This document shows, one piece after another, positions 10,948 to 18,765 of a stretch of 64,000 bases of DNA. Every line of letters starts with the position of its first letter. Position 1 is the first letter of the stretch. Source of the stretch: Gemmataceae bacterium (GTDB lineage Bacteria > Planctomycetota > Planctomycetia > Gemmatales > Gemmataceae); contig JAKEET010000084.1 of NCBI GenBank assembly GCA_022616435.1, forward strand, positions 1-64,000, read 5' to 3'. The notes beneath the pieces are model-generated. The model worked only from the letters and a program-made list of their open reading frames with translations. It made no database searches and had not been told where the DNA came from. Made by a program: the position numbers and the translations under genes.

Positions 10948-12108
10948 TCACGCGGCGAGCGTGCGGCCGAGCAGCCGGTCGTACAGGTCGCTGAGGCGCT
11001 CGATGCGCCGTTCGAAGTCGTAGGAGGTTGTCACGGTGTGCCGGCCGTTCCGCTCCAGCCGGGTTCGCAGCTCGCGATCCTGGATCAATTCCCGCAGAGC
11101 GAGGACCAACGCGTCGAGATTGCCCGGCTCGATGAGCAGGCCATTGTCGCGGTCGCGGATGAGCCGCGGCACGCCGGCGATGCGCGTCGCCACCACAGGT
11201 ACGTCCATCGCCATGGCTTCGAGCACGACGTTCGGCAGTCCTTCTCGCAGGCTGCTCAGAGCGTACATATCCATCGCCTCGTAGGCTGCTTTGGGATTCG
11301 ATTGATAGCCAAGGAGGCGGACGCGATCGCCGCAGCCGAGCTCCGCGATCAAGTCTTGCAGCATGGCGCGCCGATCGCCGTCGCCGACGATGATCAATTC
11401 GATGTCGAAGCCAAGTTGCCGCAGCTGCGCGGTGGCCCGGATGAGAAGGTCGAACGCCTTCTCCGCGGACAGCCGGCCCACGGCGCCGATCACGAAGCGC
11501 TCCGGCGCGATGCCGAGACGTTGCTTGGCGTCGGCGCGCGATTGCGAGCGCGAATACTCCTGGAGGTTGATGGCGTTGGGCACGTGGATGCAACGGCGGC
11601 GAGGCACGCCGGCGGCGAGGCACTGGTCGTACAGGTCTTCCGAGACGCAGATCACCTTTTCATAACGCGGCAAACACATCCGATCGATCCGGTAGTACCA
11701 GTTCACCCGCTGTTCCTGGACGCCCCAGCCGTGCACCGTCGTCACCAGGCGCATCGGCCAGGCGCGGCGGAGCACGAGGCCCAGGGCGTTGCTCTTGTAG
11801 TCATGGCCGTGCCAGATATCGACGCGTTCGCGGCGGCAGATGTCCAGCAGCGCCAGGGCCACGCGCCAGTCCCACGGTCCGCGATCGGGGATCGACAAGA
11901 TCGGCGCCTGCCACCGTTCCGCCTTGAGCTTCAGTTGCTCGAACCCCGGATCGGCGGGGGGGTGCATGTAGCCGCACAGCATGCGGTACCCCGCCTTGGC
12001 GAAGAACCGCGGCGAATTCAGGATGGTCTTGTCCGGTCCGCCGCCCGAGCCGCACACCACGCGCGTGTCGAGGACCACCGGCATTCGCTTGGGGCTGACC
12101 GCACGCAT
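10948..12108 (-). CDS. GT4-type glycosyltransferase
   Basis: About 386 residues, GT-B fold. The acceptor-side domain contains DIWHGHDYKSNALGL and a TTVHGWG stretch. The donor-side domain has FVIGAVGRLSAEKAFDLLI and the E-x7-E signature in SSLREGLPNVVLEAMA, typical of GT4 retaining transferases using nucleotide sugars. It is cytoplasmic or membrane-peripheral, adding one sugar of the repeat unit. Its ATG overlaps the stop of the preceding gene by ATGA (12106-12110), so translation is probably coupled. The linkage and donor cannot be predicted. Confidence 0.88.
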   Translation of the reverse strand: MRAVSPKRMPVVLDTRVVCGSGGGPDKTILNSPRFFAKAGYRMLCGYMHPPADPGFEQLKLKAERWQAPILSIPDRGPWDWRVALALLDICRRERVDIWHGHDYKSNALGLVLRRAWPMRLVTTVHGWGVQEQRVNWYYRIDRMCLPRYEKVICVSEDLYDQCLAAGVPRRRCIHVPNAINLQEYSRSQSRADAKQRLGIAPERFVIGAVGRLSAEKAFDLLIRATAQLRQLGFDIELIIVGDGDRRAMLQDLIAELGCGDRVRLLGYQSNPKAAYEAMDMYALSSLREGLPNVVLEAMAMDVPVVATRIAGVPRLIRDRDNGLLIEPGNLDALVLALRELIQDRELRTRLERNGRHTVTTSYDFERRIERLSDLYDRLLGRTLAA

Positions 12109-13394
12109 CAGTCGGCCCTCCCGGTGCGAACGTTGTCAAGGAGCCGATGCAGATGGTTGCAGGCGCCATGGCCGATGGACCGCCAGTCGTATCGATCCTT
12201 GACGAAGGTGTGAGCCTGCCGCGCCAGCTGATTCGCGCGATCCGGATCGCCGAGGACCGCCACGACGCCGTCCGCGAATTCGTTCCGGCCGGCGATCAGC
12301 AGTTGTTCGTCGTGCTGCACCTGCAATCCCTCGCATCCCACCGGCGTGCTGACCACCGGCAGACCGGCGGCAAACGCTTCGAGGATCTTGAGCCGGGTGC
12401 CGCCGCCGGATTCCAGCGGCACCGCGAGCAAATGCGCCTCGGCCAGGTGGGGCACGACATCGGGAACGGTGCCGGTCACCTCGACGCCCGGCTGGTCTGC
12501 CAATCGGCGAACTTCTTCCGGGGGATCGCGGCCCACGATCCGCAGCCGCGCGTCTTGCAACCGCGCCCGGACTTTGGGCAACACTTCTTCGGCCAGGAAA
12601 CAGGCGGCACGAGCGTTGGGCGCCCACGACATGGCGCCGATATACACAATGACCGGCGGTCCGGTCCGCTCGCCGCGGGGCAGATGTTCGTATCGCTGGC
12701 AATCAACGCCGTTGGGTACGGTGTGAACCTGTCGGCCGCCGAGTTCGCGAAAATACTTGGCCTCCTCGTCCGACACGGCAAACACGCCATCAGCCTTCTT
12801 CATGGCCGCCGCTTCCATCTGCTTCAACAATCGTGCCTCGCGCCGCAAGTAATACCGCGCCAACGCGCGGCGTTCCTCGGCGGTCCGCTCGACCAGCAGC
12901 GAGTACACGTTGTGCAGGTCGATGACGATCGGCACGGACGATTGCTCGTCGCAAAACAGCGCCGAGTCGAGATGGTCCAGGTACAGCAAGTCCGGAGTGT
13001 GATTCTGCAGTTCCTTCTCGAAGACTTGCCGAATCTCCGGTCGATTGTGGCGGCGATAGACGACGTATGGCTCCCCGACCACAAGCGCCGACGCGGCACG
13101 CAGGATCTCACGCCATCGGGATCGCTCGCTCACCCAGGCCGGACACACTTGGATCCCGTGCTCTTCCAGCGCGGCCACGGCATCAGTTTGCACTGCGGTT
13201 GCCGTCGTGACCAAGCGAACGCTGAACTCGGTTGCCAGCGCGCGCAACAGGTGAAAGCTCCGCAAGTGGCCGCCGGAATTCAGAGGCCACGGAATCTGGC
13301 TGGTCACGGCCAGGATCGAACGCCGCACTTTGCGCGACGACATGGCGCTGTCGTCGATCGAGGCGGGGCTGTGTTGGTAACAAACCGCTTCCAT
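12108..13394 (-). CDS. glycosyltransferase, TIGR03087-like (exosortase-associated)
   Basis: About 428 residues, GT-B fold. The N-terminal motif SQIPWPLNSGGHLRSFHLLR and the pair DLHNVYS / YYLRREARLLKQME resemble the PEP-CTERM/XrtA-associated sugar transferase family TIGR03087. The donor-side domain has IGAMSWAPNARAACFLAEEV and ESGGGTRLKILEAFAAGLPVV. Members of this family sit in exopolysaccharide loci of exosortase-bearing bacteria, which agrees with the PEP-CTERM gene at the right edge of the window. The ATG at 13394 is used. It lies 12 bases after the stop of the selenoprotein candidate and overlaps the next GT4 gene by ATGA. Confidence 0.82.
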   Translation of the reverse strand: MEAVCYQHSPASIDDSAMSSRKVRRSILAVTSQIPWPLNSGGHLRSFHLLRALATEFSVRLVTTATAVQTDAVAALEEHGIQVCPAWVSERSRWREILRAASALVVGEPYVVYRRHNRPEIRQVFEKELQNHTPDLLYLDHLDSALFCDEQSSVPIVIDLHNVYSLLVERTAEERRALARYYLRREARLLKQMEAAAMKKADGVFAVSDEEAKYFRELGGRQVHTVPNGVDCQRYEHLPRGERTGPPVIVYIGAMSWAPNARAACFLAEEVLPKVRARLQDARLRIVGRDPPEEVRRLADQPGVEVTGTVPDVVPHLAEAHLLAVPLESGGGTRLKILEAFAAGLPVVSTPVGCEGLQVQHDEQLLIAGRNEFADGVVAVLGDPDRANQLARQAHTFVKDRYDWRSIGHGACNHLHRLLDNVRTGRAD

Positions 13395-13406: not shown

Positions 13407-14864
13407 TCAGTTGCCGAGGTAGTCGCGTTGTCCGTAGTCGTCGTACCAGATTCGGAATGGCGTCCGGATGTCGAGCGGCACGTTCGGCCGAGCCAATTGG
13501 AAGGCGATTCCGAGATACATCGGCCTGCCCGACGCCGTGTCCTTGTGGCATGGAGTCGCGCTCAAGGCCACAACGTCGAATCGGTTGAACTTATTGCTCG
13601 CCCGGTCATAGCCGGCGGCGCCGGCCAGTGTGAATTCCGTGGGGGCGTCTTTCGCACCCAGCTTGGCCCAGCCGTCAATCTTCATGCTCACATCGGCGGG
13701 GGTGACCTCTGTCACCGTCATCTGGATCGAGCCGCCCTGCACCTGCTTTGGCTGCCAGAAGCCAGGCAAGCAGCACGCGCCGTCCACCAGGTGGAACCGG
13801 AAGATGCGCTGGCGAATCGCGGCAGGCACTTGATGAACGTCGCCGACCTTCGGATCGGCGAGCACGAGCGATTTCCAGTCGTCCGCGGTCAGCCAAAGGC
13901 CGTCGCGATTCGGCTCGGCCTTGATGACCGTCTTCGAGATGCCGAGGCTGAGCTTGTCCGGCGCGACAAACTGGCCCTGGGAGTTTCGATCGAGCGCCCG
14001 CATGAAGGTCCGCACGAACATGCCGTCGGCCGGCGGCTGGGGGTCCCGAACCTGCGGCACGCGCGCCCCGCGATCTTCGATGGACGCCACCCCAGGTTGA
14101 CGGTCCGACATTGGAAGCTTGGACCAGTTGGCCAGCCAGCCGTTGAGATTCCGATCCTGATGCCCGGCCACGAGCTTTCCGCCGGCGGTGCACAGGAACA
14201 TGTTGTTGCCAAAATAGGCGCCCTGCGCGGCAAGGTTGTCCAGGAAGGCCATGTCCCCCGGGTAACTCGACTTGATCAGGTGGTTGCGCGCGAAGGGAAT
14301 GCAAGTCTTCATGATGGTTGCACAGACATCCCGGTTGAAGAAGAGCGCACGGCTCTCCATGTCGCCGCTTCAGGTACAGCCAATCGGGTCGGCCATGGCC
14401 GACCAGACGAAGATCGGCTTGCCCTCGGCGGCCGCTTTCTTGCGCGCTTCCCAGAGATCGGTGATCCACGGTATCTCGGCCCAAAGCGCTTCGCCGGGGC
14501 GGGGCCGAATCACTTCGTGCAGTCCCAGCAACTCATCGGCGGTATAGACGCTCGGCGAACGAACGGCGGCGACTGCCGGCGTCACCGCCGGGCTTGGTCC
14601 CTCGACGGCTTTCGGATTGAGCGCCATCGGCGCCGCGGCTTGCGGCACCGGCTCGATGGCAACCGACGGCGCCGCTTTGTCATCGGCCGACTCCCTTTCC
14701 AGCGCTTCGATCGCGGCGGCAAGTCCTGTGCGTTCCGGTTGCTTCACCTTCTTGGGCGCCTCAACCACCGCCGGCTCGGACGGCGTGGTCCGGCTACAAC
14801 CGGCGCCGCCGATCGACACAGCCAGGCAACACGCAGCGACGATCGGCCGAATCGCTTTTTGCAT
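13407..14864 (-). CDS. thioredoxin-like lipoprotein with in-frame TGA, predicted selenoprotein
   Basis: Read through one in-frame TGA (14370-14372), the frame gives 485 residues with selenocysteine at position 165. The upstream half has a lipoprotein signal (SIGGAGC lipobox, Cys near residue 23), a linker, then WITDLWEARKKAAAEGKPIF, typical of thioredoxin-fold precursors. The sequence around the TGA reads DPIGCT-U-SGDMESR. The downstream half continues the same fold (FLCTAGGKLVAG) and has neither its own signal nor a ribosome site. The TGA keeps the frame exactly, and a SECIS-like hairpin follows it (separate entry). A redox role in the periplasm is inferred. Alternatives are a pseudogene or a sequencing error, which would give a 164-residue fragment. 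It sits between the PcRGLX-like and TIGR03087-like genes of the operon. The ATG at 14864 has GAGAGGA upstream. Confidence 0.72.
14340..14372 (-). promoter_or_regulatory. in-frame UGA followed by bacterial SECIS-like hairpin
   Basis: The UGA is at 14372-14370. Starting 12 bases downstream, GGAGAGC (14358-14352) pairs with GCUCUUC (14346-14340), seven pairs including one G-U, closing a 5-base loop CGUGC. The loop G-U lies 20-21 bases after the UGA, inside the 16-37 base range known for bacterial SECIS elements, which need a small apical loop with an early G. Confidence 0.6.
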
Positions 14865-14905: not shown

Positions 14906-17512
14906 CTATCGCAGGCGCGGCCAGCGCCGCGGATTCAACATTCGAACCAGCGCCACGGCGATTCCCTTCGGATTTCTGATCATGGCCATGACCCGGCTTC
15001 GCTGGGACCAGAACCTTGACGGACTGCCGGGGTCGGTCAGCGCCGGCCCATCCGGGAGTCGCGGCAGGTCGAGTTGCCGAAAGTACGAATCCTTGACGCT
15101 CTCCGTGAACGCGATCGCCAAGGCCCGGGTCGTTGCTGCCTTCGGGAACCGATCCAGATCGCGCCACGCCTGATCCATCAGCTCGTCGACCTTCACGAGC
15201 AACTTGCCGCGCAACGGCTCGTCGCACCACTGGCTCGCCAACCGAAGCACATTCGCCTTGCGGAAATCCTGCGCGGCCCATGTTTCGGTCGGGAATTCGA
15301 GCTTCTCGGGATGGGTGAAGTAGGTTGCTTCGTGATCCGCCATCCATGCGGCATAGTGCAGCAGGCTCGCTCGGGCGTAGGCGTACATCTGATCGAGCTG
15401 ACCGGCTTGTGCCTTCATGGCGAGAAAACGCGCCAACGCTGTCAAGAACACGGTGTAGGACCAGCGCAGCTCCGAATTCAGCAAATCTCGCTTGGCAATG
15501 TCGTCGTGCGGATGAATGGCCCGCCGAATCAGCTCGTCCGCCTTGCACAGGTACGTGTCATCGTGCGCGATCAACCAGCCATCCACCAGGGCGTTGATCG
15601 AATTGCCGCAGCCGCGGCCCGGTCCATGATAGTCTCGCTCCGCGGTGGAGCTGGCAATGCCCGTCGCCCCATCATCGACCAGCCCAAAGATCGTCCGCCG
15701 GCCATCGTCCATTCCGACAACCCAATCGGCGAGGCTAAGCACGGCGTCGCGAGCCGCCGGATTTCCCGTGAGATAATAGTGGTGAAGCAGACCGTTCGTG
15801 TAATTGTGCTCGTTGCACGGACCGCCGCCGTATGACTTGCCCGGCGCCTGGTTGACGCGCGAATAGGCGCGGTGACTCGCCGTGGCCGCGTCGCGATAGT
15901 GATCCGTATGCCAAAACAAGCCGCCGTTGTACGCGGCCTTGTCCCGATCGGTGTGATAGATGTCGATGTCGATGACGTGCCGCGCCAACGCGTCGTGCAA
16001 TTCCAGCCAGCGAGCATCGGCAGTCCGGTAGAACTGCAGCAACGTGCCGTAGATCACGTCGTACTGATTGTTGTAATGCGAGATGACCGGCGCCGGCCCT
16101 TGATAGTACGCGGCCTCGTGGTCGGCGTACATGTCGCCGTAGTTTCGCCAGCCGTATTCGTCGATGACTTCGCGCTTGGCGAAGAAACTGTTGGGGCCTT
16201 CAATGGCGCCCGACATCAACTTCTGAAACCGATCATCCGGATCGTCCGACGCCGGCAACAAGTACGGAATGGCTTCGGAGGCGGCGTACCATTCCGGCGT
16301 CGCCTGGACGCACGCCGGTTCATGGACCCAATCGAGTCCCGGACCGCCCGGCGCTTCAAACTGAAGCCAGACGACATGCGTCTTTTGTTCGCCTCCTTGC
16401 AGCTCGAACAGGTCGGCGAACTGCTTGGGAAACAGCCGCACGCGAACGGCGTGCCCGGCTGCTTCCAAGGCCTTGGGGAAATTCTGCCAGAACTCGGGGA
16501 CGGCCACATCCACAGCGACTGCGGCGTTCTCGATTCGCAGCGTCGGATTGGCTCGCAACCCGTGATGTTCCCCGTCGCCGCAGCGCGCCCGATATCCGCG
16601 AAACGTGCATGGCGTCTGGCCGGCGCGGTTCACATGGTTCCGGCTTTGCCAGTTCTCGCCGCCGCTCGAATCCTGATAGATCTCGACGGGCCCCGCCGCG
16701 TTCGCGTGGACAGGCCCCTTCGGCTCGGCGCACCAGCTCACGCGCGGCCGGTCTGTGCCGCGCAATGTCAGGTCCATCGACAGATCGCGAAACAGCATCG
16801 AACCGGGATCGCCCAGATCCCACAGGCCGCCGCGATGCCGCGCGCGTTGCGGATTGTGCAGCGTCAAGGCGCAGCGCACCAGGCCAGTGCCGGCGTAAAA
16901 GCTGAGCCGAGAAGCGAACCGGGCCGGCACGCCGCCCTGGAATACCCCCTTCAGGCAGATCGTCGCCCGCACCGGCCCCCGCGCCTCGACCGTGCAGCTT
17001 TCGACGATGCCCGTTTCCTCGCGCTCCTCCGGGTCCGTCAGCAGCACGCGGCTCTGCACCGAGTCCAGCGCCTCGTGGCCGTTGGTCTTCACCTGCTTGA
17101 TCGGAAAGAGGCTCTTCGGATCCACTTCAAACGCGGCCACGCCCGTGTCGATCATGATCCGGCCGGGCAGCTCGTGGACTCTCACGCCGCGCGCCGCAAT
17201 ACCGTTGGAATCGGGTTGGACGCGCTGGAGCGTCAACGTCGGTCCCGGTTGCGCCGGCAGCACGAAATCCAAAAGCAGCCATTGCACGCTGCCGTCCGAC
17301 CAGCGGGCCAGCGGGGCGTATTGAACGGGGATTTGCTGTTCCTCGCCGTCGGTCAACGCAACCGCACCGGCCGCCGGCAAGGCGCCCTTCGCGAAGGGAA
17401 TGCCGACGGTCACCGGCTGCGGCGCATTCGTGGCGCCGGGCCGAGCGACCACCAGCGCGCACTCCAGGCGCTCGCTCGTTTGCCGACAGGGGTTTGCTAC
17501 AGTCGTCGCCAT
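14906..17512 (-). CDS. PcRGLX/YetA-like protein (exo-rhamnogalacturonan lyase family)
   Basis: About 868 residues. The N-terminal region (VGIPFAKGALP, then VQYAPLARWSDGSVQWLLLD) and the beta-sandwich part (RLSFYAGTGLVRCALTLHNP) match the PcRGLX/YetA layout of a RIFT barrel, a central domain and an alpha/alpha toroid (HYNNQYDVIYGTLLQFYRT). Known members act on rhamnogalacturonan-type chains (PL26). No signal peptide is visible, so a cytoplasmic location is predicted, which is odd for a polysaccharide lyase. It might instead trim or modify the nascent polymer or act on imported chains. Catalytic residues were not assigned. The ATG at 17512 is used because the TTG further upstream overlaps the preceding stop. 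It lies 17 bases after the GT4 gene. Confidence 0.6.
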   Translation of the reverse strand: MATTVANPCRQTSERLECALVVARPGATNAPQPVTVGIPFAKGALPAAGAVALTDGEEQQIPVQYAPLARWSDGSVQWLLLDFVLPAQPGPTLTLQRVQPDSNGIAARGVRVHELPGRIMIDTGVAAFEVDPKSLFPIKQVKTNGHEALDSVQSRVLLTDPEEREETGIVESCTVEARGPVRATICLKGVFQGGVPARFASRLSFYAGTGLVRCALTLHNPQRARHRGGLWDLGDPGSMLFRDLSMDLTLRGTDRPRVSWCAEPKGPVHANAAGPVEIYQDSSGGENWQSRNHVNRAGQTPCTFRGYRARCGDGEHHGLRANPTLRIENAAVAVDVAVPEFWQNFPKALEAAGHAVRVRLFPKQFADLFELQGGEQKTHVVWLQFEAPGGPGLDWVHEPACVQATPEWYAASEAIPYLLPASDDPDDRFQKLMSGAIEGPNSFFAKREVIDEYGWRNYGDMYADHEAAYYQGPAPVISHYNNQYDVIYGTLLQFYRTADARWLELHDALARHVIDIDIYHTDRDKAAYNGGLFWHTDHYRDAATASHRAYSRVNQAPGKSYGGGPCNEHNYTNGLLHHYYLTGNPAARDAVLSLADWVVGMDDGRRTIFGLVDDGATGIASSTAERDYHGPGRGCGNSINALVDGWLIAHDDTYLCKADELIRRAIHPHDDIAKRDLLNSELRWSYTVFLTALARFLAMKAQAGQLDQMYAYARASLLHYAAWMADHEATYFTHPEKLEFPTETWAAQDFRKANVLRLASQWCDEPLRGKLLVKVDELMDQAWRDLDRFPKAATTRALAIAFTESVKDSYFRQLDLPRLPDGPALTDPGSPSRFWSQRSRVMAMIRNPKGIAVALVRMLNPRRWPRLR

Positions 17513-17529
17513 GAAGGGCACCTGACAGT

Positions 17530-18765
17530 TCAACGACTCAACACAGGCGCGCTCTGGTCATGCGCGCCCTGGTATTGCGGTGCAGGCCGGATCGGCTCGC
17601 CCGACGGCACGGCCAGCTTGAACAACTCTTCCGCTTCGCTGCTGCGCACGGACCAATCGAAGCGACCCGCCACATGGGCGCGGGCGGCGCGGCTCATGCG
17701 CTCGCGCAAGCCAGAGTCCCGGAGCCAGTCGCCGACGAGAGCGGCCAGCTCGTCCGGGCCGTCGCAGTTGACCACGCGGCCCGTTTCCGGGATGTGCATC
17801 GTCTCGGCCGTGCCACCGGACGCGCCTGCGATCACCGGCTTGCCGCACGCTTGTGCTTCCAGGAGCACCATGCCGAAGCCTTCGATGTCTTGCCCCACCG
17901 CCCGGTTGGGAAGGGCGAACAGATCGCATTGCTGATAGCAGGCGAGCAATTCCGAGTCGCGAACTTCCCCCAGGAACTGCACCTGAAGCGTCACGCCCAA
18001 TTCGCGCGCCAGTTGCTCGAGGGCTTGCCGCTCTTCGCCGTCGCCCGCGATGGCGTACAGGACGTTCGGGACCGCCTGCCGGATCGCCGGCAGCGCCCGG
18101 ATCATCATGTCCTGACCTTTGCGCTTCTGGAGCCGGCCGACGGTGAGCACCACGGCGCGATTGCCCCAGCCGAGTCTCTCGCGCTGCTCGACGCTCGGCG
18201 GCGCCGGCGTGAAGAACTGCACGTCAACCCCCGGATGCAGCGTGCGCACGCGTTCGGCCGGCATCTGCCATTCGTCGAGGAGAATTCGCCGCGTGTTGTC
18301 GCTGTTGGCGATGAGCAGACTGGCGTTCTTCAAGACGCGGCCGACGAGGAATGCGTGCTCGCGGCTGTCCTTCGCCGTGGTGACGTCCTCGCCGTGGATG
18401 TAACACAGGTACGGAACGCGCTGCCGGCACTTCAAGGCGAGACACATCACGCCTTCGGGCAGACAGCGCCCGCAATGGATCAATTGAATCTGTTCGGCTC
18501 TCACGACGCGTTTGATCGCCCGGACCGTGCGCCAGTAGCCGGCCAGCCCCTGGAAACTCCGCAACCCCCACTGCTTCATGCGCAGGTCGAGCCGGTGAAT
18601 GCGCAGGTCGTGACTTGCGTCGAATTCGGCTTGCTGCGGATGCGCGCCGGCCGCGATGACGTAGTCGCGCGACAGCCGCCGGTAGACTTCCCAGAACCAG
18701 CGGCCGCTGCCGCCGGTCTGAGGAGGGAACACTTCGCTAAGGAGTAGGTGACTCATTGGTGTCAT
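17530..18765 (-). CDS. GT4-type glycosyltransferase
   Basis: About 411 residues, GT-B fold. The N-terminus has the classical LLLSEVFPPQTGGSGRWFWE glycine loop. The middle has YLCYIHGEDV. The donor domain has VVLTVGRLQKRKGQDMMIRA, IAGDGEERQAL and the E-x7-E signature in IEGFGMVLLEAQACGKPVI. It probably transfers a hexose from a nucleotide sugar during repeat-unit assembly. The ATG at 18765 overlaps the stop of the sulfotransferase by ATGA; another ATG at 18756 is possible. The donor is unknown. Confidence 0.88.
   Translation of the reverse strand: MTPMSHLLLSEVFPPQTGGSGRWFWEVYRRLSRDYVIAAGAHPQQAEFDASHDLRIHRLDLRMKQWGLRSFQGLAGYWRTVRAIKRVVRAEQIQLIHCGRCLPEGVMCLALKCRQRVPYLCYIHGEDVTTAKDSREHAFLVGRVLKNASLLIANSDNTRRILLDEWQMPAERVRTLHPGVDVQFFTPAPPSVEQRERLGWGNRAVVLTVGRLQKRKGQDMMIRALPAIRQAVPNVLYAIAGDGEERQALEQLARELGVTLQVQFLGEVRDSELLACYQQCDLFALPNRAVGQDIEGFGMVLLEAQACGKPVIAGASGGTAETMHIPETGRVVNCDGPDELAALVGDWLRDSGLRERMSRAARAHVAGRFDWSVRSSEAEELFKLAVPSGEPIRPAPQYQGAHDQSAPVLSR

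Follow-up and report, generated by a model that had tools for sequence, protein, structure and literature searches.

An exported, Planctomycetota-centred protein family in which an in-frame UGA is predicted to encode selenocysteine almost without exception

The 64,000-nucleotide stretch of Gemmataceae DNA analysed for the current report (the window) contains on its minus strand a reading frame, positions 13407 to 14864, with just one internal TGA, at codon 165 (14372-14370), and the question raised by this locus is whether that codon ends a protein, reflects an error or a decayed gene, or is read as an amino acid. When translated with the TGA as a residue (P0001), the frame specifies 485 amino acids, and the sequence around the codon is DPIGCT-U-SGDMESR. 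An earlier account of the locus, made without database searches (the sequence-only reading), had described a lone in-frame TGA dividing a thioredoxin-like exported protein at DPIGCT-U-SGD, and this description holds: there is one 485-residue frame, and homology crosses the UGA in that frame up to the C-terminus (profile positions 3-393 of 394). The accompanying statement that the downstream half has neither signal nor start is correct in its first part only. The sole signal peptide, MQKAIRPIVAACCLAVSIGGAGC (residues 1-23; 14796..14864, minus strand), lies in the N-terminal half and has a lipobox-like end, GAG-C, and the protein is probably lipid-anchored; but an in-frame ATG (M169; 14358..14360, minus strand) is present four codons 3' of the TGA. 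This ATG is not conserved among the relatives, and re-initiation is therefore no general explanation for the interrupted frame.

Relatives of the protein were found by protein search in 84 of 294 Planctomycetota genomes, and nearly all of the matches that span the site have exactly one TGA. To avoid bias towards any codon, the genome contigs were also searched with a pattern that leaves the codon free, GHP[LF][GA]CT-NNN-[NG]NG, and among the matches listed the codon is TGA in 118 of 118, so that the relatives carry TGA, not Cys, at the position for which the sequence-only reading had proposed selenocysteine. These listed matches come mostly from Planctomycetota, with some from Verrucomicrobiota and Armatimonadota (Chthonomonas, Fimbriimonadales) and single MAGs labelled Chloroflexi, Neomarinimicrobiota and Actinomycetota, and they include the complete chromosomes of named strains (CP036290.1, Pla163; CP036526.1, K23_9). 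The genome from which the window was drawn encodes six copies of the family with one TGA in each, and in this respect the finding is larger than was first described: the window gene is, as judged from these comparisons, one of six copies of a predicted selenocysteine-only family in its own genome. Another observation of multiplicity is a Gemmataceae MAG (L147:272-5640) with four tandem family copies and one TGA read through in each. At 126 distinct sites the arrangement is C-x-U in 109 and C-U in 11, and an Arg stands at U+7 in 122; U-3 to U-1 are mostly G-C-T and U+3 is mostly G.

A second search, with a profile in which Cys was set at the position of interest and which thus favoured Cys forms, returned 180 sequences with U, three with S, one with D and one with C at the site. 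The lone C (L203) was considered as a Cys form and rejected, its thioredoxin site being of a different shape, and no convincing Cys form was present among the ~190 profile matches. Across the whole phylum sample a profile search placed the family in 85 of 294 genomes. Nearly all site-spanning matches again had one TGA, and six were without it, each with Ser or Asp or with a shifted site. Two of the six belong to genus g97, in which selA was not found, and others lie beside TGA copies or in the same genome as such copies. In relatives L194 and L195, from a genus without detected selA, the site is altered (for example to GNPLGLPDFAPSINT) and is neither U nor Cys. At each of the loci L208 and L209 two copies stand in tandem, one with U retained and the other with Ser or Asp, an arrangement that suggests that the active site has been lost repeatedly following duplication. 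In 241 sampled Verrucomicrobiota genomes the family was seen in the centre genome only, and no Cys form was detected. In these alignments, then, the residue is predicted to be selenocysteine almost without exception, and loss of selenocysteine at this site leads to Ser, to Asp or to disappearance, and not to Cys.

Selenocysteine at codon 165 would call for SelA, SelB, a tRNA-Sec and SelD, and the search for the four genes, which the sequence-only reading had named as a check, was successful for three of them. The genome assembly (6.4 Mb in 217 contigs, 79% complete) encodes selA (566 bits), selB (368 bits) and a tRNA-Sec with the anticodon UCA (72.9 bits), but no selD was detected among its contigs. 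An apparent selD match (62.6 bits) was rejected, since it is thiL and adjoins queC. Most family-bearing genomes checked do have selD, and for this reason its absence here is most likely due to incompleteness of the assembly. In the Planctomycetota sample selD usually contains a TGA itself, as it does in many of the family-bearing relatives. Decoding of selenocysteine is a common trait of the phylum, with selA above the cut-off in 191 of the 294 genomes, and it is associated with the family: selA occurs in 76 of the 84 genomes that bear the family and in 115 of the 210 that do not (Fisher p = 1e-9, for raw genome counts in which relatedness is ignored). Four genomes (G164, G214, G264 and G280) have TGA-bearing copies and no clear selA, and all four are incomplete MAGs. 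The contig of the window also carries a second Rfam match to tRNA-Sec, ~30 kb past the window (L012:1501-1595; G000:C136:93964-94058, plus strand), which scores 50.5 bits against a cut-off of 47 and has a long variable arm. Its anticodon loop, CUGCAAA, contains the anticodon GCA for Cys codons, ARAGORN made no call at this locus, and the gene may represent an allo-tRNA-like or a recoded tRNA-Sec.

The sequence-only reading had also drawn a hairpin of seven pairs that starts 12 bases past the TGA and displays G-U at +20/+21 in a CGUGC loop, and all of these particulars were confirmed. Numbered from the first base 3' of the TGA as +1, the hairpin (14340..14358, minus strand) pairs +12/+30 through +18/+24, and its apical loop, +19 to +23 (14347..14351, minus strand), is the commonest in the family: of 150 members 32 have CGUGC and 24 have CGUGA as the five bases at these positions. 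Three other copies in the same genome share the register of the window gene, with the loop CGUGC in L052 and L054 and CGUGG in L051. Folded alone, the hairpin has an energy of -9.4 kcal/mol (z = -2.17), and for the longer stretch 14372-14320 the minimum free energy structure is a different one of unremarkable stability (z = -0.49). Taken singly, the hairpin of the window gene exceeds chance expectation by no more than a moderate margin. Because the fold of the single sequence was unconvincing, relatives were brought in, and the first 54 bases after the UGA in 150 distinct members were compared with synonymous recodings that preserve both the protein and the codon usage. Pairs 14-28 to 18-24, five in all, form without a gap in 79 of the 150 versus 13.6 expected, a second register (pairs 18-32 to 22-28) is complete in 16 versus 1.7 expected, and 118 members versus 37.6 expected have a hairpin with five or more pairs whose loop includes GU. 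The pair +15/+27 joins two third codon positions and is represented by CG in 53 members, GC in 43, GU in nine and UA in five; it is paired in 116 versus 68 expected. The permutation tests ignore relatedness, and the synonymous control is the stronger of the two. With a register common to many relatives, strong compensatory synonymous changes and counts far above the synonymous controls, the sequence comparisons identify the downstream hairpin as the predicted SECIS element of the family.

A structure model of the protein (m9186c4e40e7f; pLDDT 87.4, pTM 0.88) places a thioredoxin-like domain at residues 127-252 (14109..14486, minus strand), with a fold match of Z 10.8 over 116 residues to 3f9u and of Z 9.7 to DsbH (2ju5), and the modelled U165 lies immediately ahead of the helix that succeeds the core strand. 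An antiparallel beta-barrel-like domain follows at residues 280-459 (13488..14027, minus strand), for which the structural matches are weak barrels (Z up to 6.0) and for which Pfam gives no match. A Foldseek search with the model returned nothing below E = 0.001, and a search of the PDB by sequence profile returned chance matches only. A cis-Pro is a typical feature of thioredoxins; none was evident in the family alignment. The family as a whole is considered to be mostly exported, since 96 of the 150 members screened with a simple script were predicted to carry a Sec-type signal peptide. Fold and motif would suit a redox role outside the cytoplasm. In the mechanism that we propose, SelB with Sec-tRNA(UCA) would read the UGA owing to the SECIS that starts 12 bases behind it, selenocysteine would be inserted, and the product would be one exported 485-residue protein in which a C-x-U within the thioredoxin-like domain precedes the beta-barrel-like domain. 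U165 might then serve as the attacking selenol and C163 as the resolving thiol, and the substrate might be a peroxide, a disulfide or an oxidised protein.

Other readings of the TGA have to be weighed against this one. If the codon were a true stop or an error of sequencing or assembly, the locus would be a pseudogene or would encode two proteins, the second re-initiated at the ATG at 14360; that ATG, four codons past the TGA, and the fragmented state of the assembly lend themselves to such a reading, which is nonetheless of negligible probability, given that all 118 pattern matches listed, and all six copies in the genome, have the TGA at this codon, that in-frame conservation extends to either side of it, and that the ATG is unconserved. 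Assembly error, pseudogene and re-initiation are all rejected on the ground that the TGA is invariant across independent genomes. A subtler reading grants that the UGA is read through, denies that selenocysteine is the residue, and invokes in its place a leaky UGA decoded as Trp or Cys, or a programmed choice between a short product and a long one. The identity of residue 165 is indeed deduced from sequence, and a short exported form could have a role of its own, but selA is far commoner in genomes with the family than in those without it, a SECIS whose stem covaries and whose loop contains GU lies at the bacterial distance, and the copies in genus g97, where selA was not found, have lost the site; we regard such read-through as very improbable. 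Partial termination is normal at selenocysteine codons and may serve as a form of regulation at this UGA. The TGA is thus very probably a selenocysteine codon served by a SECIS, in a large, exported, apparently unnamed, Planctomycetota-centred family that appears to be almost exclusively selenocysteine-containing; machinery, SECIS, invariant TGA, export and thioredoxin-like fold all lend strong support to the selenocysteine that the sequence-only reading had placed at position 165.

What the predicted selenoprotein does and whether it belongs to a named family can be considered in the same way. The gene belongs to a minus-strand run in which a sulfotransferase, a UDP-sugar dehydrogenase and an epimerase are encoded alongside glycosyltransferases and a PcRGLX-like protein. 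Its start lies 42 nt behind the upstream gene of the PcRGLX-like (exo-rhamnogalacturonan-lyase-like) protein (14906..17533, minus strand; Pfam PcRGLX_1st, PcRGLX_2nd) and its end 13 nt before that of a glycosyltransferase (12108..13394, minus strand; Pfam Glyco_trans_1_4). From this setting one might conclude that it acts specifically in the synthesis of a sulfated polysaccharide together with the flanking operon, and the sequence-only reading had tied it functionally to the sulfotransferase and glycosyltransferase genes. The position inside the cluster is real, but no common partner gene was found up- or downstream in ~110 relatives (by longest-ORF calls, which are crude in GC-rich DNA), and the other copies examined in the same genome (L214, L215 and L216) sit in other contexts in which no polysaccharide-type neighbours were recognised. 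The tie is not supported by this comparison, by which the operon link appears to be a local fact and no trait of the family, and a specific role in polysaccharide synthesis is unlikely, though the window copy could have been recruited to it locally. Descent from a named thioredoxin-like selenoprotein family, as a divergent member of Trx7/PDZ (NF041199) or of VPGUxxT (NF041382/NF041383), would be compatible with the weak profile similarities to NF041199 (E = 0.13) and, for 13 of 68 members, to NF041383 (best E = 0.00048). The former amounts to 11.2 bits over 22 residues versus a curated cut-off of 300, Pfam detects no PDZ domain, and no family member matched NF041199 at E <= 0.1; no VPG precedes U in the family, which has UxxG, not UxxT, and the C-terminal domain is without a Pfam match. 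Membership in either family is accordingly quite improbable. Thioredoxin_7 (PF13899) matched six of 38 members (best E 0.003) and not the window protein.

For the predicted selenoprotein family itself, we lean towards the view that at the scale of the phylum selenocysteine is obligatory in this exported family, that Cys cannot do its chemistry, and that loss of the machinery leads to loss of the active site in place of a change from selenocysteine to Cys. If this view is true, the family may be one reason why the Planctomycetota retain selenocysteine decoding, and it would offer a natural system for testing which tasks selenium can perform and sulfur cannot. Cys counterparts are thought to be near-universal among selenoproteins, and standard methods of discovery depend on them (PMC13188914, PMC12013277); Cys homologues exist for every new family reported by deep-Sep (PMC12013277). 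Such methods would overlook a common exported family without Cys forms, since it is invisible where Cys/Sec pairs are sought, and this is probably why it is omitted from the 2026 inventory of 119 prokaryotic selenoprotein families (PMC13188914), none of which matches it in motif and domain make-up. NCBIfam release 20 (June 2026) and Pfam contain no fitting model, the nearest being Trx7/PDZ and VPGUxxT, and the annotations of many planctomycete genomes probably list the members as truncated proteins. Earlier work has reported planctomycete selenoproteins (PMC4807772), and although the family is apparently unnamed, a member might already appear in the supplementary list of that paper.

With the bacterial selenoproteins that are decoded by SelA, SelB, SelC and SelD, the family has in common the in-frame UGA, an adjoining small-loop hairpin with an early G-U, the machinery genes and a thioredoxin-like fold; it differs from them in being apparently unnamed and in that no convincing Cys homologue was found for it, when such homologues exist for nearly all known selenoproteins (PMC13188914). 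Trx7/PDZ (NF041199) resembles it in the start of a Thioredoxin_7-like domain and in the placement of selenocysteine at a redox site, but the present family has no PDZ domain and has CxU where NF041199 has CxxU. The VPGUxxT families (NF041382/NF041383; OS_HP5) are likewise thioredoxin-like, with selenocysteine at the active site and weak profile similarity, whereas the present family has the motif HPLGCTUNNG and a barrel-like C-terminal domain that Pfam does not match. The N-terminal domain shares its fold with DsbH, AGR and Thioredoxin_7 (PF13899, PF03190; Z about 9-11), from which the family is distinguished by ~12% identity, by a predicted selenocysteine in place of the CxxC pair and by the attached barrel-like domain.
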